Part shown: positions 47,579-56,421 of the stretch, piece after piece
Layout: every line of letters starts with the position of its first letter
Numbering within the stretch: the stretch's first letter is position 1
NCBI RefSeq assembly: GCF_003403295.1
Contig: NZ_QUWV01000014.1
Span: 1-64,000 of the forward strand
DNA from: Komagataeibacter melaceti
Lineage (GTDB): Bacteria > Pseudomonadota > Alphaproteobacteria > Acetobacterales > Acetobacteraceae
DNA: 64,000 nucleotides
Direction of reading: 5' to 3'
The notes under the pieces: model-generated
What the model saw: the letters and a program-made list of their open reading frames with translations, nothing else
The model's database searches: none
What the model was told of the DNA's origin: nothing
Position numbers and translations under genes: made by a program

Positions 47579-48583
47579 ATGACGAAATCACTTTCTGAAA
47601 TCTATACCAGCCTCCCTGAGGCCCGGGACCCGGGTGCCGCCACGCCAGATGCGGTGGCAAAGGCCGATTTTAACGCCCGTCACTGGTCCAGCCCTGTTCC
47701 CGGTCCGCTCAAGCCCGGCTCGGCGGAGCACAAGCGGGCGGTTGCGGAAATGTTCCGTGATACCTTCAATCCGTACAAGCCTTCGGTCATTGAATGGCCC
47801 AAGCTGGATGCCGAGACGCTGCGGCGCGTGACCTCTCTGCCCATATGGGATATCGCGGTACAGACGGAAGGCAAGGCCCGGCTGCGCATGGCTGCCTACG
47901 CCCGCCTGGTTGAAGACCCGGACATGAAGGACGCCCTGTCGCGCAATGCGTGGGAGGAGAACCGCCACAAGGAGGTTCTTGCCAACATGGTCGCGGCCTA
48001 TGGCATCCCGCTGGCGTCCGAACCCCCCTACATCGAACCGCGTGATGTGGAATGGGCCTATATGGTCACGGGCTTTTCGGAATGTGTGGACAGCTTCTTC
48101 GCGTTCGGCCTGTTCGCCATCGCCCGCAAGTCCGCTTTCTTCCCGCCCGCGCTGATCGAGACGTTCGAGCCGGTCATGCAGGAGGAATGTCGCCATATCC
48201 TGCTGTTCGCCAACTGGCTGGCCTGGTACCGCGCCACCATGCCACTGTGGCGCAGGCCGTGGTTTGAACTGCGCGTGCTGGGTGTGTGGCTGTTCCTGCT
48301 TTATGAACGCATCGGCATGGTCACGACCTTCGATGCGGACGGGAACAAGCACCAGCAGGATAACAACTTCACCGTGCATGGCACGAAGGATGTCGCCAAT
48401 GTCGATGTTCCCCTGCGTGACATGATCGACATGTGCCTGATCGAGAACGAGCGTCGTTTCGCCGGTTACGATCCGCGCCTGCTGCGGCCGAAGCTTGCGC
48501 CCAACCTTGCGCGCTTCCTGCGTTTCTTCCTGCGTCGTACGCCCAATTCCGCCATGCTGGAAAGCCAGCCCGGCGCGGCCTGA
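47579..48583 (+). CDS. Diiron ferritin-like-fold protein of unknown function
   Basis: A 334-residue protein whose helical core has a complete carboxylate-bridged diiron pattern: Glu98, Glu127-x-x-His130 (WEENRHKEV), Glu168 (FSECVDSFF) and Glu203-x-x-His206 (QEECRHILL). That E / ExxH / E / ExxH layout is the ferritin/RNR/desaturase-like signature. Length and residues beyond the core suggest an oxidase or oxygenase rather than an iron store. A Trp/Leu-rich helix (about 230-260, LRVLGVWLFLLYERIGM) could touch the membrane. There is no neighbouring reductase or ferredoxin. I do not recognise a specific substrate. Confidence 0.7.
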   Translation: MTKSLSEIYTSLPEARDPGAATPDAVAKADFNARHWSSPVPGPLKPGSAEHKRAVAEMFRDTFNPYKPSVIEWPKLDAETLRRVTSLPIWDIAVQTEGKARLRMAAYARLVEDPDMKDALSRNAWEENRHKEVLANMVAAYGIPLASEPPYIEPRDVEWAYMVTGFSECVDSFFAFGLFAIARKSAFFPPALIETFEPVMQEECRHILLFANWLAWYRATMPLWRRPWFELRVLGVWLFLLYERIGMVTTFDADGNKHQQDNNFTVHGTKDVANVDVPLRDMIDMCLIENERRFAGYDPRLLRPKLAPNLARFLRFFLRRTPNSAMLESQPGAA

Positions 48584-48631: not shown

Positions 48632-49150
48632 TTAGCCCAGCGTGGGTGCGACCGGCCCCGCGCCAAAGTCGAGCTGGCCCAGATAGGCCACGCGGGTAGC
48701 GGGGATGATGTCCCCGATCCGGCCGCCCTCGATACGGGCATAACCGTAAACCTTGCTTTCTTCCTCGTCCGACCCGATGGCAAGCCCGGCGAACTGCCTG
48801 CCCGCGCCGTCCTTGAGCTGCCAGATGTCACCACGGACGACCGCATCATATTTATAGCGGAAGCCCGGAACGATCTTGGTCAGCAGCAGGGGCATCGCCT
48901 CCGTCACATCCACGGCGGTGCGCACGAACTGCGTGCAGTCCTGATCCGGGGCGAAATAGCCGCGCATGTCCTTGGTCATCAGGATCAGGCCGGGGCGGAT
49001 GCCCTCGTTTGATACGAGGCGGCTGCGGATGACGATTTTCTGGTCATCGCGCGAAATTTCCGAGGCCAGCATCACGGTCCCGACTTCTGCTTTCAGCAGG
49101 TCGGGCACCACGATCATCTGCGTCAGGGGAAGTGTGGCGAGCGTGGTCAT
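48632..49150 (-). CDS. Hypothetical protein, 172 residues
   Basis: A 172-residue protein from the ATG at 49150. It begins MTTLATLPLTQMIVVPDLLK and is rich in beta-type stretches (KIVIRSRLVSNEGIRPGLILM; VPGFRYKYDAVVRGDIWQLK). It has one Cys, no signal peptide and no membrane helix. A start five codons earlier exists, but GGAG fits the chosen ATG better. I do not recognise the fold; the pattern of strands would suit a small beta-barrel. It converges on the diiron gene. Confidence 0.55.
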   Translation of the reverse strand: MTTLATLPLTQMIVVPDLLKAEVGTVMLASEISRDDQKIVIRSRLVSNEGIRPGLILMTKDMRGYFAPDQDCTQFVRTAVDVTEAMPLLLTKIVPGFRYKYDAVVRGDIWQLKDGAGRQFAGLAIGSDEEESKVYGYARIEGGRIGDIIPATRVAYLGQLDFGAGPVAPTLG

Positions 49151-49470
49151 CTCTCTATTCTCCATCAGGACATTACCGGGGCGGATGATGCAGACTGTGC
49201 GCTCCGTTTGATGTCATGACAACCGCATGCCGGTCATGATGTTCCATGGGGCCATGGCACCCGCGCGCCTGCCGCGTGGCACGATGGCCGTGGCAATAAC
49301 CGGAATGGGGACGAACCGGGCCACGGTGGCTGACGTGGCAGCACAAAGTGGATGGCAAGGTCGGTCCGTTCCTGCAACAATGTGTGGCTGGTGCAGGATG
49401 TGGCGTGCCTGATGCGGCGCGTTCGTCCCGGCCCTTGGTGACCTGCCTTCATGAATGATAGGTGATCGGC
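49151..49470. other. 320-bp intergenic region before cytochrome b561
   Basis: A divergent gap. It contains one 10-bp palindrome TGTCATGACA (49212-49221). No RNA, repeat or small gene stands out; base composition is like the flanking genes, so a decayed gene is possible. Confidence 0.3.
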
Positions 49471-50028
49471 ATGACCGTCATTTCTTCCCCCCAGTCCCCC
49501 ATGCCTGCCCATTACAGTTGGGAGACGCGCTGGCTGCACTGGATTACGGCCGTGCTGGTGGTCGAGCAGTTTGTGGTGGGCCAGGTCGGCTGGCATTTCA
49601 TGGAACGCACCGCGCCGATGCGGCCCCTCATGGTGGTGACGCACACATCGCTGGGCGTCCTGCTGGCCGCCGTGTTCCTGACGCGCGTGGCCTGGGGCAT
49701 GACAGGGGGGCGGGCGATCCGCTTTCCCGTCGTGACGGCCCAGGACCGGGCGGCGAAGGGTGTCCACCATCTGCTCTACATGCTGCTGGGGGGTGAGATC
49801 GTGCTGGGCTATATGGCGCGCTGGTCCACCGGGCGGCCCATAATTGCCTTCGGCATGCCGATCAACTCGCCATTCCCCGCCATGTCATCCGCGACGCACC
49901 ATTTTTTCTCATGGTTGCACCACTGGGGGGCGTGGCTGCTGTTCTGGGTGGCGCTTTTCCATGCCTGTGCCGGACTTTACCACCTGCTGTTCTGCCGGGA
50001 CCGGGTTTTCCAGCGCATGTTACCGTAA
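49471..50028 (+). CDS. Cytochrome b561-type membrane haem protein
   Basis: A 185-residue inner-membrane protein with four predicted helices. Likely haem ligands are His23 (RWLHWITA), His58 (VTHTSLGVL), His150/His151 (WLHHWGAW) and His164 (LFHACAGLYH), the two-haem b561 layout. AGGTGA lies before the ATG at 49471, which is preferred to a start three codons upstream. It probably moves electrons between quinol and a periplasmic or membrane acceptor. It lies just upstream of the c-di-GMP gene pair on the same strand; a redox link to the haem-PAS protein is speculation. Confidence 0.85.
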   Translation: MTVISSPQSPMPAHYSWETRWLHWITAVLVVEQFVVGQVGWHFMERTAPMRPLMVVTHTSLGVLLAAVFLTRVAWGMTGGRAIRFPVVTAQDRAAKGVHHLLYMLLGGEIVLGYMARWSTGRPIIAFGMPINSPFPAMSSATHHFFSWLHHWGAWLLFWVALFHACAGLYHLLFCRDRVFQRMLP

Positions 50029-50137
50029 TGATGGATATATGCCTGCTGAATAGTCTGTCCGGGCTGCTGGACAAGCCAGAACATCATGCTCTGCCGGGAA
50101 GTATAAAATAGGAAAAAAAACCTAAATGTGATAATTT

Positions 50138-50155
50138 TGCATGTTGTATCATGCA
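50138..50155. promoter_or_regulatory. Inverted repeat TGCATG-N6-CATGCA
   Basis: Perfect 6-bp arms with a 6-bp spacer, 56 bp to the left of the 24-bp palindrome. Two symmetric sites at this spacing in one control region suggest paired operator sites. Confidence 0.3.
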
Positions 50156-50210
50156 TATCCTTGGGAATATCTGTATATTCACAGGCTTGGGATTGAGCGT
50201 GAGGATATAT

Positions 50211-50234
50211 AGAAATCATACATGTATGATTTCT
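50211..50234. promoter_or_regulatory. 24-bp perfect palindrome
   Basis: The sequence from 50211 to 50234 equals its own reverse complement: half-site AGAAATCATACA followed by its exact complement. It lies 190 bp before the ATG at 50423, in an AT-rich gap. Perfect symmetry over 24 bp is very unlikely by chance and fits a dimeric repressor site or a cruciform-forming element. Confidence 0.6.
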
Positions 50235-50422
50235 GTTGCATCTCCTCTGGGTGTTTATTAGTGTTAACCCAATATCAGCAAACGTAAATAAATAGCTGAT
50301 AACCTTATTGGAACATCCCTGCTGCACGCGGTTGATGCCTGATAATTTTTCCACATTCCTGCGTGTGGAGCCGGTTATATGCCTGCGTTATACCAGTAAT
50401 TGGATGGTATTGATCGTTCAAA

Positions 50423-52561
50423 ATGGAATCTATGAGCAATCCTGTCTATGAGCTGAAGGTTTATAGCCCCTTCCTTTTAATCGGTGCATTTATTGTCTGT
50501 ATAATGGGCGCGTGGGTTACCATGCGCCTCGTCACCCGTATTTCCGAAACACGCGGCGGGCAGCGCATCGGCTGGTACCTGATGGCAGCCGTGGCGGGCT
50601 CCACCTTTGTCTGGTGTACGCATTTCGCCAGCATGCTGGCCTATCATTCCGGCGCCGGGGGGCATCTGGCCCCGATCAGGACGGCCCTGTCGCTGCTGGT
50701 CATCTTTGTGGCCATACCCTGCGCGGTGGGGGCGGCCATCAGGCTGCGCGGATGGGGCGGCTGCCTGACCGGGGGCACGATCCTGGGCCTTGGCATCGCG
50801 GGGATGCATTATACCGGCATGGCGGCCTACCGGCTGGATGCGCCGGTGGTGTGGAACACGCCGCTCATGGCGCTGTCCATCGGGATCGGGATCGGGCTGT
50901 CCACGGTTGCGCTAAGGCTGGCGCTACAGCCCGCCGGTCTGCGGCGTGAGATTGAAATGACGCTGGCCATGGCGGGCGCCGTGGCCGGACTGCATTTTAC
51001 CGGCATGGCGGCCATGCATGTGATCATGCGGGCGCATATGGGCGCGATGCACGACAACCAGCAGTTCCAGATGATCGGATTCGCGGTGCTGGGCGGTTCG
51101 CTGCTGACCATCATCACCGGCATCGCCAGCTATGTCATTGATGGCAGCCTGCGCCGGGAATCGTATGGCGAACTGCATCGCATGGCGATGTCCGACGCGC
51201 TGACGGGCCTGCCCAACCGCATAAGCTTCAACGAACGACTGGCCGAGGAAGTGGCGCGGTCTGACCAGCGCGACCGGCCCTTTGCCATGATCGGCATCGA
51301 TCTGAACAAGTTCAAGGAAATCAATGACACCCGGGGCCACGCCGCGGGTGATACGGTACTGGTGACCCTGGCGAAACGGTTCTGCGCCCTGCTGGGGGAA
51401 GGGGAATTTGTTGCCCGTCTGGGCGGTGATGAATTCGTAGCACTTCACCGCATGGTGGATGACAGGGAACTGCATGGTTTCGTGAAGCGTATCCAGCAGG
51501 CGCTCAACCAGCCCATCCAGATTGATGACTACATGGTCACAAGCGGCGGCAGCATTGGCGTGGCGGTCTATCCCATTGACGCCAGCGATGGCGAGACCCT
51601 GATTTCACGCGCTGACATGGCGATGTACCGCGCCAAGAGCGACCTGCATCAGAATGTCTGGTTCTATGAAAGCTCACTCGACCAGAACGTACGTGAACGC
51701 CGTGCGCTGTGTGAGGACCTGAAGCAGGCCATGGCGAAGCAGCAGCTTTCGCTACACTATCAGGTGCAGACCGTGGTTGCGACAGGCGAGGTCTCGGGCT
51801 ACGAGGCGCTTCTGCGGTGGAACCACCCCACGCGCGGTTCCGTGCCGCCGCTGGAAATCCTTGAACTGGCGGATGAAAGCGGCCTGATCATTCAGCTTGG
51901 CGAATGGGTGCTGGAGCATGCCTGTCAGGCCGCTGCGGGGTGGGAGGGAAATATCTGCGTCGCGGTCAACATGTCGGCCTCGCAGTTCCTTGAACCCCGC
52001 TTTGTCGAGACCGTGCGCGGGGTCCTGGAGCGTACGGGCCTGCCAGCCAGCCGCCTTGTGATTGAAATTACGGAAGGCACCGTGCAGCGCGACCGGACCC
52101 GTGCGCTGCTCATGGCGCAGAAGCTGCATGCGCTCGGGGTCCGTTTTGCGCTGGACCAGTTTGGCGGGGAGAATTCCGTCCTGGCCGCGCTGTGTGATTT
52201 CCCCTTTGACAAGATCAAGCTCGACCGCCTGGTCATGCAGCAGGTCACGACCGACCCCCGCGTGGCGGAGCTGGTCCGTGCTGTCACGATTGCCGGTCAC
52301 GCCCTGCACATATCGGTTCTGGTGCAGGGGATCGAGACGGGTGACCAGCTCGCCCTTGTTTATTCCGAGGGGTGTGACGAAGGGCAGGGTTACCTGCTTG
52401 GCGCTCCCGGCCAGACCATTACAGGTGCGGCAGTCCGCCATGTAGGCGGGGGACAGACCCCACGCCTGCAGCAGGCCGGACAGAAAAGCCGCCGATTTCA
52501 TTCTTCTCCTTATTTTGTCCCGCGATTTGAGAGCTCTGGAATCCGTTATGAAACAGTATGA
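50423..52561 (+). CDS. MHYT-GGDEF-EAL protein (probable diguanylate cyclase)
   Basis: A 712-residue membrane protein. MHYT sensor motifs lie in its first 240 residues: WCTHFASM (His67), GMHYTGMAAY (His129) and LHFTGMAAM (His191). GGDEF is intact (RLGGDEF, 333-338), with the usual DLNKFKEIND motif, so cyclase activity is expected. The EAL domain has Glu461, Asn516, Glu548, Asp578 and Lys597, but Gln579 replaces the second metal Asp and Gln635 replaces the catalytic Glu of the EGVET motif. It is thus likely inactive as a phosphodiesterase. MHYT domains are thought to bind copper and sense O2, CO or NO. It overlaps the next gene by 14 bp. Confidence 0.9.
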   Translation: MESMSNPVYELKVYSPFLLIGAFIVCIMGAWVTMRLVTRISETRGGQRIGWYLMAAVAGSTFVWCTHFASMLAYHSGAGGHLAPIRTALSLLVIFVAIPCAVGAAIRLRGWGGCLTGGTILGLGIAGMHYTGMAAYRLDAPVVWNTPLMALSIGIGIGLSTVALRLALQPAGLRREIEMTLAMAGAVAGLHFTGMAAMHVIMRAHMGAMHDNQQFQMIGFAVLGGSLLTIITGIASYVIDGSLRRESYGELHRMAMSDALTGLPNRISFNERLAEEVARSDQRDRPFAMIGIDLNKFKEINDTRGHAAGDTVLVTLAKRFCALLGEGEFVARLGGDEFVALHRMVDDRELHGFVKRIQQALNQPIQIDDYMVTSGGSIGVAVYPIDASDGETLISRADMAMYRAKSDLHQNVWFYESSLDQNVRERRALCEDLKQAMAKQQLSLHYQVQTVVATGEVSGYEALLRWNHPTRGSVPPLEILELADESGLIIQLGEWVLEHACQAAAGWEGNICVAVNMSASQFLEPRFVETVRGVLERTGLPASRLVIEITEGTVQRDRTRALLMAQKLHALGVRFALDQFGGENSVLAALCDFPFDKIKLDRLVMQQVTTDPRVAELVRAVTIAGHALHISVLVQGIETGDQLALVYSEGCDEGQGYLLGAPGQTITGAAVRHVGGGQTPRLQQAGQKSRRFHSSPYFVPRFESSGIRYETV

Positions 52562-54806
52562 GGACGCGACCACTCCGCCCGGAATGGACGGAAAAACGGA
52601 TACCAGACTGGCGGACCGGGCTACGGGAATGACGGCGGATGTCAGCCTTGAACTGCTGGAGCAGGCCACGGACGGCATCGTGATCATCAATGAACGTAAC
52701 GAGGTGATCTTCTTCAACCCGGCGGCGGAAAAGCTGTGGGGCTTTGCCGAAAGCGAGGTGCTGGGACAGAATGTGAGCCGCCTCGTCCCCTCGGTCTATC
52801 GCCCCGACCATGACAGCTACATCGACCGGAACCGTGAGAGCGGCATGGACCGGATTGTCGGCACATCGCGCGAGGTCACGTTCGAGAACAAGGCCGGCGA
52901 CTACATTTCAGGCGAGATGTCGATCTCGACCGCCGTGCTGGGGCCGGAAAAGAAACGCTACTACATGGCCATCATGAAGGGCGTGACCGAGGAGAGCCAC
53001 CGCCGCAAGCTGCATGACCTGCAGAACACGGTGTTCGAGGCCATCTCGAACGACATGATGATCCCCGATGTGGCCGACCTGATCTGCCGGGAGGTGGAAA
53101 GCTTCGTGCCCAACACGGTGGCTGTCCTTATCCTGCTGGGGGACAACAACCGACTGCATATCCTGTCGGGTCCGGGCCTGCCGCGCCATTACGCCACGGC
53201 GCTGGAAAATGTGGAACTGAGCGAGGAAGACCTTGCCACCATCGCCCGTGATCCGCAGGCGGTCGGGCGCATCGTGTGGGACAGCTACAGCTCGCTTGGC
53301 ATCTCGCTGGGGCTGCACAACTGCTGGGCTTCGGCCATCAAGTCACGCAATGGCCGGATTTCGGGCATTTTCGCCCTCTATTCACGCAATCAGTACAAGC
53401 TGAGCGACTGGCCGCAGAAGATCGTGACCGGCTCCGTCTCGTTCTGTGGCGTGGTGATCGAGAATTACGAGGCACAGCAGCATATCTCCCAGCTTGCGAA
53501 CTATGATTCGCTGACCGGGCTGCTCAACCGCTCCGCCATTCACAAGGTCATCAGGTCGATGATCGACCTGCCGGGGGACAATAATTTCGCGATCTTCATG
53601 GTCGATATCGACCGTTTCCGCGATATCAATGACACGCTGGGCCACATGAATGGCGATGCCTTCCTCAAGGCCATTGCCCACAGGCTCAAGACCCTGTCGC
53701 GCACCAACTATATCATCAGCCGGTCGGGGGGAGATGAGTTCGTCATCGTGCTGCCCGACACGAATGAGGCGCGGGCCGTGATCTTTGCTGACCGGCTGAT
53801 CAAGGGCATGCAGGAGCCGGTCGAGATTGCGGGCAACCTGCTGGTCGTATCACTGGGTATCGGGATCAGCATTTTCCCTGAAAACGGCCCCGATGGGCAG
53901 TCCCTGCTCAGCCATGCCGAAAGCGCCATGCGCCGGTGCAAGAAGGAAGGGCGCGGGGGATACTGCGTGTCCAGCACGGCGGATAACCGCGCGGCGGAAG
54001 ACCGGCTCCTGCTGGGGTCCGCGCTGCGTGATTCGCTGGCCCGTGGCCTTTTGAACCTGCACTACCAGCCCCAGATCGATATCCGCACCGGCAAGCTGTA
54101 CGGGGCGGAGGCACTGTCGCGGTGGAACCACCCCACGCTGGGCAACATCTACCCCTCACGCTTCATCGCGGTGGCGGAGGATACCGGGCAGATCGAGACC
54201 ATCGGCGCGTGGTCGCTGGAGGAAGCGGTCAGCCAGGTCGTGCGTTGGGACAAGGAAGGGCTGCATGTGCCCGCCGTGTCGGTCAACCTGTCGGCGGTGC
54301 ATTTCTGCAACCGGGACCTGCCGCTGCTGATCGAACGTATCCTCAAGGAACATGGCGTGGCCCCCAGGCGGCTGACCGTTGAGATAACGGAAAGCGTCAT
54401 GATGGGGGAGAACGAGGAAACGATGCGGGGGCTGTCCGCGATCCGTGCCCTTGGTGTCGGGCTGTCGATGGATGATTTCGGCACGGGGTATTCGTCCCTG
54501 TCCCGTCTTACGCGCCTGCCGCTGACCGAAATCAAGATCGACCGCACGTTCATCATGAACCTTGAGCAGGATGCCAATGCGCAGGCGGTCACCACCGCGG
54601 TCATCGGCATTGGCAACCGGCTGAACATGACGGTCGTGACCGAAGGGGTCGAGACGGAGGCGCAGCTCAAGCTGCTGCAGGGCCTGAACTGTGACGTGGC
54701 GCAGGGCTACCTGTTCGCGCGGCCCATGACACCGGATGACGTGCTGGCCTGGTCGCGTGAGCCGCATCCATGGCGGCCGGACCCGCTGCCTGCACCCCAG
54801 CCGTAA
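52548..54806 (+). CDS. PAS-GAF-GGDEF-EAL c-di-GMP phosphodiesterase (DosP/PDEA1-like)
   Basis: A 752-residue soluble protein. The PAS domain (about 30-150) closely resembles the haem-PAS of E. coli DosP: His88 in RPDHDSYIDRN matches the proximal ligand, and Arg108 in SREV the distal Arg. Thr106 stands where DosP has its distal Met95. A GAF-like segment (160-320) follows. GGDEF is intact (394-398) without an RxxD inhibitory site. The EAL domain is complete: Glu521, Asn580, Glu612, Asp642-Asp643, Lys663, Glu699. It resembles the O2-sensing PDEA1 of cellulose-producing Komagataeibacter. It starts inside the preceding gene's end. Confidence 0.9.
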   Translation: MKQYEDATTPPGMDGKTDTRLADRATGMTADVSLELLEQATDGIVIINERNEVIFFNPAAEKLWGFAESEVLGQNVSRLVPSVYRPDHDSYIDRNRESGMDRIVGTSREVTFENKAGDYISGEMSISTAVLGPEKKRYYMAIMKGVTEESHRRKLHDLQNTVFEAISNDMMIPDVADLICREVESFVPNTVAVLILLGDNNRLHILSGPGLPRHYATALENVELSEEDLATIARDPQAVGRIVWDSYSSLGISLGLHNCWASAIKSRNGRISGIFALYSRNQYKLSDWPQKIVTGSVSFCGVVIENYEAQQHISQLANYDSLTGLLNRSAIHKVIRSMIDLPGDNNFAIFMVDIDRFRDINDTLGHMNGDAFLKAIAHRLKTLSRTNYIISRSGGDEFVIVLPDTNEARAVIFADRLIKGMQEPVEIAGNLLVVSLGIGISIFPENGPDGQSLLSHAESAMRRCKKEGRGGYCVSSTADNRAAEDRLLLGSALRDSLARGLLNLHYQPQIDIRTGKLYGAEALSRWNHPTLGNIYPSRFIAVAEDTGQIETIGAWSLEEAVSQVVRWDKEGLHVPAVSVNLSAVHFCNRDLPLLIERILKEHGVAPRRLTVEITESVMMGENEETMRGLSAIRALGVGLSMDDFGTGYSSLSRLTRLPLTEIKIDRTFIMNLEQDANAQAVTTAVIGIGNRLNMTVVTEGVETEAQLKLLQGLNCDVAQGYLFARPMTPDDVLAWSREPHPWRPDPLPAPQP

Positions 54807-54832
54807 GAAATTGCCCTGACATAACAGGTTGA

Positions 54833-54930
54833 TAGGTAATAAAAGTTTTCAGATATCGCCTTTTTTCCAACAAGGCGATGTTCTTTAAGGCTTTTCGGGA
54901 AAAGCTTCTCCAGAAACTTCTTCATGATTT
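54833..54930 (+). repeat. Composite palindromic repeat, copy R5 (3' of the phosphodiesterase gene)
   Basis: TAATAAAAGTTTTC, a left stem ATCGCCTT/AAGGCGAT (54855-54879), a right stem around CTTTT-CGGG-AAAAG, and the tail GCTTCTCCAGAAACTTC, then TTCATGATTT. This is the fullest two-stem copy. It begins about 26 bp after the stop codon and reads in the gene's direction. Confidence 0.62.
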
Positions 54931-55074
54931 CCAGCCGGGGCGGTTTGCATGGCAGGGCGCGCATGTCCTACATCGGGGGAAAGACGTGTGGGCACTGCTT
55001 GGCCCGGCACGATGTTTCCTGCCCCAGCTTCCGTTCGGTAACGGTTGGCGGGCACATGGCCACAGGATAGTCCC

Positions 55075-56421
55075 ATGACCTTACCCGTTTTTGATCTTTG
55101 TCTGAAAAATGGCAGTGTCGTCCTGCCAGATGCCACGGTCGTGACCGATGTGTATGTGCGCGACGGCCGTATTGCCCGACTTGGCGGGCAGGGCGATGCC
55201 GGCAGGGTCATTGACTGTACGGGCCTGACCATCCTGCCCGGCGTGATTGATACGCAGGTCCATTTCCGTGAGCCGGGCCTGACCGGGGCGGAGGATCTGG
55301 CCACCGGCAGCATGGCTGCCGTGATGGGCGGCGTGACCGCCGTGTTCGAGATGCCCAACACCCGCCCCGCCACCGACTGCCCGGAAGCGGTGCTGGACAA
55401 GCTTGAGCGCGCACGTGGGCGCATGTGGTGTGACCATGCCTTCTACGTTGGCGCGACCACCGACAATGCGGACCGCTGTGGTGAGCTGGAAATGCTGCCG
55501 GGTACGGCAGGCATCAAGATTTTCATGGGTTCATCCACCGGCAACCTGCTGGTGTCGGATGACCGGGTGCTGGAACGTGTGCTGCGCTCCGGCCGCCGCC
55601 GCGTCGCCATCCATGCTGAGGATGAAACCCGTCTGCAGGAGCGCCTGTCCGAGCGGCAGGCGGGCGATCCGTCCTCCCACCCCGTATGGCGCGATGAGGA
55701 GACGGCCCTGCGCGCCACGCAGCGCATCGTGCATCTGGCGCGGCGCACGGGGCGGCGTATCCATGTCCTGCATGTCACCACGCCCGCAGAGCTGGAATTC
55801 CTTTCGGCGCATAAGGACATCGCCAGTTGCGAGGTCACGCCCCAGCACCTGACCCTGGCGGGGGAAGACGCCTATGCCGAACTTGGCACACTGGCGCAGA
55901 TGAACCCGCCCATCCGTGGCCGCGAATGGCGTGACGGGCTGTGGTACTGGATGGACCAGCGCGTGCCCGACATCATCGGCTCCGACCATGCGCCGCATAC
56001 GCTGGAAGCCAAGCAGCGTGCCTATCCCGATTCGCCTTCCGGTATGCCGGGCGTGCAGACGCTGCTGCCGCTGATGCTCGATCACGTGGCCCATGGGCGG
56101 CTGTCACTACGCCGGGTGGTGGACATGACCTCCACCGGGCCGCAGCGCCTGTTCGGACTCGTGGGCAAGGGGCGTATTGCGGTGGGGTTTGATGCCGATT
56201 TCTCGGTCGTGGACCTTGGTGCCCGCTGGACGGTCCAGCAGGACTGGCTGGCCTCGAAATGCGGGTGGTCGCCTTTTGTCGGGCGTGAACTGACGGGTCG
56301 CCCGATTGGTACGGTCATTCGGGGTAATGTCGTGATGTGGGAAAATGAACTGGCGCCCACCGCACAGGGTGAACCCCTGCGCTTTGAGGCAACGGACCGC
56401 CCGCAGGGTTCTGAAGCCTAA
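55075..56421 (+). CDS. pyrC: Dihydroorotase, class I
   Basis: A 448-residue amidohydrolase from the ATG at 55075. Metal and catalytic residues include His63 and Arg65 (TQVHFREPG), Asn95 (EMPNT), Lys148 (GIKIFMGSSTG), His180 (AIHAEDE), His233 (LHVTTP) and Asp304 (GSDHAPHT). Gln61 replaces the first His of the usual HxH pair, a variant I recall from other alphaproteobacterial and Bacteroidetes enzymes. It closes carbamoyl-aspartate to dihydroorotate in pyrimidine synthesis. It follows repeat R5 and is followed directly by R6. pyrB is not in view. Confidence 0.88.
   Translation: MTLPVFDLCLKNGSVVLPDATVVTDVYVRDGRIARLGGQGDAGRVIDCTGLTILPGVIDTQVHFREPGLTGAEDLATGSMAAVMGGVTAVFEMPNTRPATDCPEAVLDKLERARGRMWCDHAFYVGATTDNADRCGELEMLPGTAGIKIFMGSSTGNLLVSDDRVLERVLRSGRRRVAIHAEDETRLQERLSERQAGDPSSHPVWRDEETALRATQRIVHLARRTGRRIHVLHVTTPAELEFLSAHKDIASCEVTPQHLTLAGEDAYAELGTLAQMNPPIRGREWRDGLWYWMDQRVPDIIGSDHAPHTLEAKQRAYPDSPSGMPGVQTLLPLMLDHVAHGRLSLRRVVDMTSTGPQRLFGLVGKGRIAVGFDADFSVVDLGARWTVQQDWLASKCGWSPFVGRELTGRPIGTVIRGNVVMWENELAPTAQGEPLRFEATDRPQGSEA

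Follow-up and report, generated by a model that had tools for sequence, protein, structure and literature searches.

Two adjacent genes of Komagataeibacter melaceti, found in the first 64,000 nucleotides of contig NZ_QUWV01000014.1 (the window; contig 74 of a 3.49-megabase Komagataeibacter genome in 248 contigs), encode a predicted synthase and a predicted hydrolase of cyclic diguanylate (c-di-GMP). The pair is real, is conserved in the genus, and is sensibly read as a cyclase-hydrolase operon, a variant of the theme of the dosCP and cdg operons. The reading of the two genes as a predicted cyclase/hydrolase pair that is distinct from the pdeA-dgc (cdg) operons is well supported by their sequences. 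We further consider it probable, with some reserve, that they belong to a conserved operon of two to three genes that sets the c-di-GMP level by opposed enzymes. The preliminary description, made from the letters alone, reported two rightward genes overlapping by 14 base pairs (bp), and the open reading frames at 50423-52561 and 52548-54806, with an overlap at 52548-52561, bear this out. The features of the pair are as follows.

50423..52561, forward strand: gene 1, MHYT-GGDEF-EAL, 712 residues, predicted to be a diguanylate cyclase of the membrane whose EAL domain is non-catalytic; alternative start at 50432
50462..51142 (approximate limits), forward strand: MHYT membrane sensor of gene 1 (Pfam match; motifs WCTHF, MHYTGM and LHFTGM)
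51185..51643, forward strand: GGDEF domain of gene 1, active-site motif GGDEF intact
51713..52408, forward strand: EAL domain of gene 1, loop 6 and EGxE degenerate
52548..52561, forward strand: overlap of the gene 1 end and the gene 2 start, 14 bp, in the window genome only
52548..54806, forward strand: gene 2, PAS-GAF-GGDEF-EAL, 752 residues from the conserved ATG, a DosP/PDEA1-like predicted c-di-GMP phosphodiesterase
52653..52976, forward strand: haem-type PAS domain of gene 2 (His88, Thr106, Arg108)
52983..53489, forward strand: GAF-fold domain of gene 2 (structure prediction)
53496..53954, forward strand: GGDEF domain of gene 2, motif SGGDEF intact
54021..54725, forward strand: EAL domain of gene 2, all inspected catalytic motifs present

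The domain make-up, motif states, conservation, synteny and constraint of the pair are supported by the sequence. The Pfam matches of gene 1 (MHYT 5.7e-24, GGDEF 3.8e-40, EAL 3.6e-59, with no other domains) and of gene 2 (PAS 8.4e-11, GGDEF 1e-37, EAL 2.1e-72) far exceed chance. Gene 1 has the marks of an MHYT sensor: the domain scores 84.3 bits against a Pfam cut-off of 21, the histidine is invariant in all three MHYT motifs in an alignment of 11 rows, and a crude count gives four hydrophobic stretches in this part. At the level of motifs, its GGDEF domain carries the GG(D/E)EF active site of diguanylate cyclases; no RxxD I-site was seen in this domain. The EAL domain keeps its signature (EALLRW) together with the N, ExxE, K and Q motifs. 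However, its loop 6 reads DQFGGE rather than the DDFGTG of active enzymes, in which both aspartates are reported to coordinate the catalytic metals (PMC5301497), and the first glutamate of EGxE is replaced by glutamine (QGIE), so that both of these marks of a catalytic EAL phosphodiesterase are missing. The intact GGDEF and compromised EAL of the preliminary description are thus confirmed for the active site, loop 6 and EGxE, but the EAL signature itself is undamaged. The second aspartate of loop 6 is absent and QGIE is present in all 18 gene 1 rows of the genus. Among the best 80 of at least 588 confirmed MHYT-GGDEF-EAL loci on genome contigs, 77 keep both EAL motifs, and the other three are Komagataeibacter copies of gene 1. 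Because a degenerate loop 6 has already been reported as the cause of lost EAL activity in a GGDEF-EAL cyclase of K. xylinus (PMC10333796), this route of EAL loss is not new in the genus.

Gene 2 combines a predicted haem site with a complete EAL domain. His88 and Arg108 are the equivalents of His77 and Arg97 of DosP (Arg97 was positioned through the R97A chain and His77 by counting), so that in sequence alignment gene 2 has the haem PAS with proximal histidine and distal arginine of that protein. In place of Met95, the sixth haem ligand of DosP, stands Thr106, and threonine occupies this column in all 18 rows that hold the PAS domain; the haem histidine is likewise kept in 18 of 18. The predicted fold of the PAS domain matches the DosP haem PAS structure 1vb6 with Z 17.3 at 44% identity. 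Gene 2 has a single PAS domain followed by a GAF fold, whereas DosP has two PAS domains. The GAF domain that had been proposed for this stretch is supported by the predicted fold, which matches the GAF structure 3ci6 (Z 15.3, root-mean-square deviation 3.0, 152 residues aligned; mean predicted local distance difference test score, pLDDT, 83.5), and is not called by Pfam, whose only match with E at or below 10 is DUF7738 at 0.023. The full-length fold is of moderate quality (mean pLDDT 70.6, predicted template modelling score 0.44) and was used just for the matches to DosP and to GGDEF-EAL proteins. Against the NCBIfam model NF008467 (DosP), gene 2 scores 642.2 bits, below the curated equivalog score of 857 bits. 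The EAL domain carries the EAL, N, ExxE, DDFGTG, K, EGVE and Q motifs of a catalytic phosphodiesterase, intact in all 19 rows; together with the 1vb6 match, this upholds the complete EAL and DosP-matching PAS seen earlier. The GGDEF motif is intact in 18 of the 19 rows, the exception being GADEF in the nearest relative (G060).

The ratio of nonsynonymous to synonymous substitution rates (dN/dS) was estimated by simple Nei-Gojobori counting over pairs of sequences that are related and not independent; their dS was often 0.5-0.9, and pairs with dS outside 0.05-1.5 were left out. On this basis, the medians for gene 1 (17 of 18 rows, the split one being left out) are 0.203 in MHYT, 0.084 in GGDEF, 0.182 in EAL and 0.554 in the tail, where 79 of 136 pairs were used. 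GGDEF is therefore the most constrained domain, and this pattern indicates that gene 1 is kept for its GGDEF domain, while the EAL domain is relaxed and not free. In gene 2 (13 of the 18 rows with PAS), the medians are 0.033 in PAS, 0.035 in the GAF stretch, 0.114 in GGDEF and 0.086 in EAL. Constraint is tightest in PAS and GAF, which suggests that gene 2 is kept most strictly for its sensor half.

The family search covered 200 genomes drawn from Acetobacteraceae, with five candidates scored in each, plus 19 genomes of Komagataeibacter and four of the genus g73 by genus. Gene 1 was found, with E at or below 1e-110, in 18 of the 19 Komagataeibacter genomes, unbroken in 17 and split in G060. Gene 2 was found in all 19, its G184 copy being truncated by the end of a contig. 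In all 18 genomes that have gene 1, gene 2 comes after it on the same strand, at one syntenic place. Four flanking genes of the window (two upstream without a family, cytochrome b561 and an amidohydrolase) stand beside the pair in 16 of the 17 relatives whose loci were fetched; L078 has three of them before its contig ends, and the amidohydrolase gene is also present in G184. The claim that a cyclase-type and a phosphodiesterase-type gene lie close together on one strand and recur in relatives has therefore held across the genus. Its extension to Acetobacteraceae as a whole is limited: in the searched genomes, a pair of MHYT and DosP-like genes was seen only in Komagataeibacter and in one of the four g73 genomes (Novacetimonas cocois).

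The 14-bp overlap, which the preliminary description treated as meaningful, fared differently. The bases common to both genes are ATGAAACAGTATGA, and an overlap of this length was found in none of the 17 fetched relatives: the overlap is 4 bp in G060, and the genes are separated by 16-20 bp in 14 of the 17 and by 67 and 102 bp in L082 and L086. A conserved overlap as a coupling device was accordingly rejected, and the conserved feature of the junction is closeness. The mechanical open reading frame of gene 2 begins at a TTG at 52515, and comparison with the relatives places the conserved start at the ATG at 52548. Gene 1 may start at 50432 instead of 50423, because ATGAGCAATC does not vary among 14 aligned sequences and stands after the invariant AAAATGGAA.

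A third gene follows gene 2 in 16 of the 19 genomes, 15 copies being whole and one cut by a contig end (G202). G060, G184 and the window genome lack it and have the amidohydrolase gene as the next one after gene 2. This gene (e.g., L092:7456-9678) encodes a PAS-GGDEF-EAL protein, and in the 15 whole copies its GGDEF motif reads GSNEF or GPNEF and its EAL motifs are intact; the haem column holds histidine in two of the 15, within a shortened stretch. Its median dN/dS values (11 of the 15 whole copies) are 0.166 in PAS, 0.056 in the GAF stretch, 0.062 in GGDEF and 0.031 in EAL, a pattern that suggests that gene 3 is kept for its EAL domain.

The closest model for the pair is the dosC-dosP operon of E. 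coli (dgcO-pdeO, yddV-yddU), in which, as here, a cyclase and a haem-PAS phosphodiesterase are encoded together (PMC8846402). This precedent of a cyclase-then-haem-phosphodiesterase operon was overlooked in the preliminary description, so the arrangement cannot be regarded as unprecedented. Gene 2 aligns with DosP across the PAS domain, part of the domain before GGDEF, GGDEF and EAL, and in both systems the cyclase gene precedes a closely spaced haem-PAS phosphodiesterase gene on the same strand. The sensor of DosC is a globin, whereas gene 1 is no globin-coupled cyclase but a membrane MHYT protein with a degenerate EAL domain.

The pair also differs, as had been claimed, from the pdeA-then-dgc arrangement. 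In the cdg1-3 operons of the same genus, pdeA is reported to stand above dgc (PMC6559022). Those operons share with the window pair the phosphodiesterase family and the opposition of two enzymes within one operon (AxPDEA1 with a haem PAS, AxDGC2 with a flavin PAS), and four cdg-type PdeA proteins share 55-57% identity with gene 2, as well as its haem histidine and threonine. However, the order of the window pair is the reverse, and the cdg cyclase is a GGDEF-EAL protein of 574-585 residues, whereas the window-type cyclase is an MHYT protein of 674-724 residues. The cdg-type operons were found at other loci. The complete relative G135 has three loci with a PdeA-like gene followed by a cyclase-like GGDEF-EAL gene of 574-585 residues, none of which is this locus, and the window genome has one cdg-type pair (contig 175) and two further cyclase-like genes (contigs 219 and 43). 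In a tree of 31 rows, rooted for drawing only, a split with support 100/99 separates gene 2, gene 3, the partner in a second copy of the pair, three g73 genes and one further G135 gene from four cdg-type PdeAs and four longer paralogues, so that gene 2 and the cdg-type PdeAs lie on opposite sides. As a separate observation, a PAS-GGDEF-EAL paralogue in G135 (L198:5452-7674) has no match to the GGDEF pattern and reads CQGVE in place of EGVE; it is perhaps inactive in both halves.

Two further systems resemble parts of the pair. MucR and NbdA of Pseudomonas aeruginosa and CdgB of Azospirillum are reported to combine MHYT with GGDEF-EAL, as gene 1 does, and the EAL domain of MucR is among the ten best matches of gene 1 in the PDB; that domain (structure 5m1t) is a phosphodiesterase domain; in gene 1, by contrast, loop 6 is degenerate and the EGxE glutamate is gone. 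KoBdcA and KoBpdA of Kosakonia are described as an antagonistic pair of diguanylate cyclase and phosphodiesterase with haem-dependent oxygen sensing that controls cellulose (PMC13141831). There, a PAS-PAC-GGDEF cyclase lies beside the bcs operon; here, the cyclase is of the MHYT type, and the only match to the cellulose synthase subunit BcsB in the window genome is on another contig.

From these features and precedents, we infer the enzymatic activities, haem and copper binding, co-transcription, the direction of the oxygen response and the link to cellulose as follows. Gene 1 would be a membrane diguanylate cyclase whose GGDEF domain is controlled by the MHYT sensor, probably a copper-based sensor of diatomic gases or redox state, and whose EAL domain would be retained as a non-catalytic regulatory or nucleotide-binding domain. 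The MHYT protein CoxC is reported to answer carbon monoxide and oxygen through copper (PMC11347149). Gene 2 would be a soluble phosphodiesterase of the DosP/AxPDEA1 kind, in which the haem PAS and GAF domains control EAL and the GGDEF domain is regulatory and possibly active. The close junction would give coordinated expression through presumed co-transcription. Two precedents of opposite direction have been reported, since oxygen inhibits AxPDEA1 but stimulates DosP of E. coli. The PAS domain of gene 2 is 50-56% identical to those of the local cdg-type PdeAs and 43-46% identical to those of DosP, and because it is nearer to the former, with shared histidine and threonine, we favour inhibition of gene 2 by oxygen; c-di-GMP and cellulose would then rise in air. 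The earlier proposal that the two proteins respond oppositely to oxygen, as an oxygen switch, is an unsupported hypothesis.

Several observations weigh against an operon of opposed enzymes. Gene 1 of G060 has a frameshift at a run of seven G within the GGDEF codons (L094:6940-7090, minus strand); together with the GADEF of its gene 2, this means that the cyclase half is lost or decaying there and the phosphodiesterase kept, or that the assembly contains a homopolymer error. G184 has no match to gene 1, its gene 2 being cut by the contig end, and in L085 (G210) gene 1 has lost further EAL residues. The MHYT domain of gene 1 is as loosely constrained as the degenerate EAL domain (0.203 and 0.182), which makes sensing by MHYT the weakest step. 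The dead GGDEF domain of gene 3 is well constrained (0.062). Finally, gene 2 could itself act as a cyclase as well, given that 18 of 19 rows keep its GGDEF motif. The run of seven G and the frameshift in G060 also suggested phase variation at these codons of gene 1, an idea that was rejected: the window reads GGCGGT without a run, and the frameshift in G060 is possibly a homopolymer sequencing error.

The last of these points leads to the alternative that gene 2 is bifunctional, a cyclase and phosphodiesterase switched by its haem PAS, in which case the pair would not be a simple couple of synthase and hydrolase. Dual-function GGDEF-EAL proteins, e.g., CdgB, have been reported, and gene 2 keeps both the SGGDEF and the complete EAL motifs. 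However, GGDEF is its least constrained domain, the motif has become GADEF in G060, and the paralogous gene 3 has lost GGDEF and kept EAL; we regard this alternative as unlikely. It is more unlikely still that gene 1 is a c-di-GMP receptor or scaffold like LapD or FimX and not a cyclase. An EAL domain that lacks two catalytic motifs and is yet under purifying constraint is what a binding domain would look like, but all 17 unbroken rows of gene 1 keep the GGDEF motif, and the domain is under strong constraint, whereas LapD and FimX are degenerate in both domains.

The operon might also be a matter of descent alone: the two genes would belong to an expanded GGDEF-EAL family and share a promoter, and would be neither functionally coupled nor opposed in their sensing. 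The genus has many such GGDEF-EAL genes, the overlap is not conserved and widens to gaps of 67 and 102 bp in two relatives, and relatives lose members of the operon. Moreover, a GGDEF/EAL gene within 600 bp is found at only 15 of 80 MHYT loci (the best 80 of at least 588), two of the 15 neighbours being on the opposite strand and four of the 15 loci lying outside Acetobacteraceae. Nevertheless, every genome that has gene 1 (18 of 18) keeps the gene order, and 10 Komagataeibacter genomes as well as N. cocois carry a second pair of MHYT and DosP-like genes elsewhere. We consider descent alone to be somewhat doubtful, and prefer the operon of opposed enzymes. A more elaborate form of the latter, to which we give rather little credence, is a division of labour among GGDEF-EAL paralogues through complementary losses: a membrane cyclase with a copper MHYT and no remaining EAL activity, a haem-PAS phosphodiesterase, and a third phosphodiesterase without GGDEF or haem. 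These would form one complex that compares membrane-side and cytoplasmic gas signals and thereby adjusts c-di-GMP for cellulose synthase, the window lineage being without the third member.

The second pair (L096-L106) occurs in one of the four g73 genomes, N. cocois, besides the 10 Komagataeibacter genomes, and its MHYT gene is frameshifted in G213. In a tree of 25 rows, the window-type MHYT proteins form one group with those of the second copy (99/97), and the 15 other rows lie outside it. DDFG and EGIE are retained in all 11 copies of the second-copy MHYT protein. Its median dN/dS values of 0.078 in MHYT, 0.060 in GGDEF and 0.062 in EAL (9 of 11 rows, the frameshifted L105 and N. cocois being left out) are similar across the domains, unlike those of gene 1. 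Its partner lacks the haem histidine in three of 11 copies, and neighbouring residues vary in more. The second-copy pair thus appears as the reverse of the window locus, with the EAL domain of the MHYT protein kept and the haem PAS of the partner eroding.

At seven loci (L107, L108, L122, L130, L133, L139 and L151; five of Gluconacetobacter/Acetobacter garciniae and two others), the MHYT gene is followed by a gene for a GGDEF-EAL protein of 764-786 residues, with a 4-bp overlap in five of the seven. Three of these followers were examined: Pfam calls no domain in their first 340 residues, which contain four to five hydrophobic stretches and have a membrane-bound look. No such GGDEF-EAL follower was seen at the MHYT genes of L109 to L112 or of Nguyenibacter L154, the last being a short contig. 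A GGDEF-EAL neighbour of MHYT thus has a broader spread across the family than a haem-type one.

We found no description of this operon in the literature searched, which was largely without subscription papers. A 2025 study by Zhang et al. in J Agric Food Chem reportedly deals with tandem GGDEF-EAL proteins of K. xylinus 2955, and the genes described here may well be among those it covers. In a comparison of 20 genomes, up to seventeen GGDEF/EAL proteins were counted per genome, and the section on c-di-GMP contains no description of this operon (PMC6528568). In a 2026 study of K. intermedius, an insertion junction is reported between the gene of a 'putative signaling protein' of diguanylate cyclase/phosphodiesterase type and dosP_3 (PMC13068021), which may be this locus. 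Two studies report annotations of 7 to 9 'dosP' genes for genomes of the genus, so that members of the gene 2 family are known under the dosP name. c-di-GMP was discovered in K. xylinus, and haem-based oxygen control of a c-di-GMP phosphodiesterase (PDEA1) was first found in this genus; in 2019, direct evidence that oxygen sets cellulose production through c-di-GMP was still called missing (PMC6559022). The predicted operon, present in 18 of 19 Komagataeibacter genomes and apart from the cdg type, is a concrete, deletable target for the oxygen-cellulose question and for strain engineering.

The region around the pair contains the following further features.

49462-50028: cytochrome b561 gene, upstream of the pair
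50211..50234: perfect 24-bp palindrome AGAAATCATACATGTATGATTTCT, just before the GTTGCAT block
50235..50302, forward strand: genus-wide upstream block, invariant GTTGCAT and then looser conserved stretches (14 aligned sequences), candidate promoter or operator
55045-56421: amidohydrolase gene, downstream of the pair

The upstream alignment comprises the window and 13 of the 17 fetched relatives. A scan of 49900-55100 for sigma-70 promoters gave a single promoter-like site, where 2.6 would be expected; it lies on the other strand, and 50235..50302 contains none. Terminator-like sites in 49900-55100 numbered four against 4.2 expected, and no Rfam family reached its gathering score in 49900-55200. 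Even when up to two mismatches are allowed, the palindrome occurs only once in the genome. It was not found at that place in the 12 other aligned relatives, and G060 keeps it perfect through a compensating change in both arms. As RNA, the palindrome region folds better than 200 shuffles (z -3.9), and it is a candidate operator or transcript element. The proteins encoded at 47579-48583 and 48632-49165 have no Pfam or NCBIfam match at E 0.001; they flank the pair loci in all 17 fetched relatives, at 72-96% identity.

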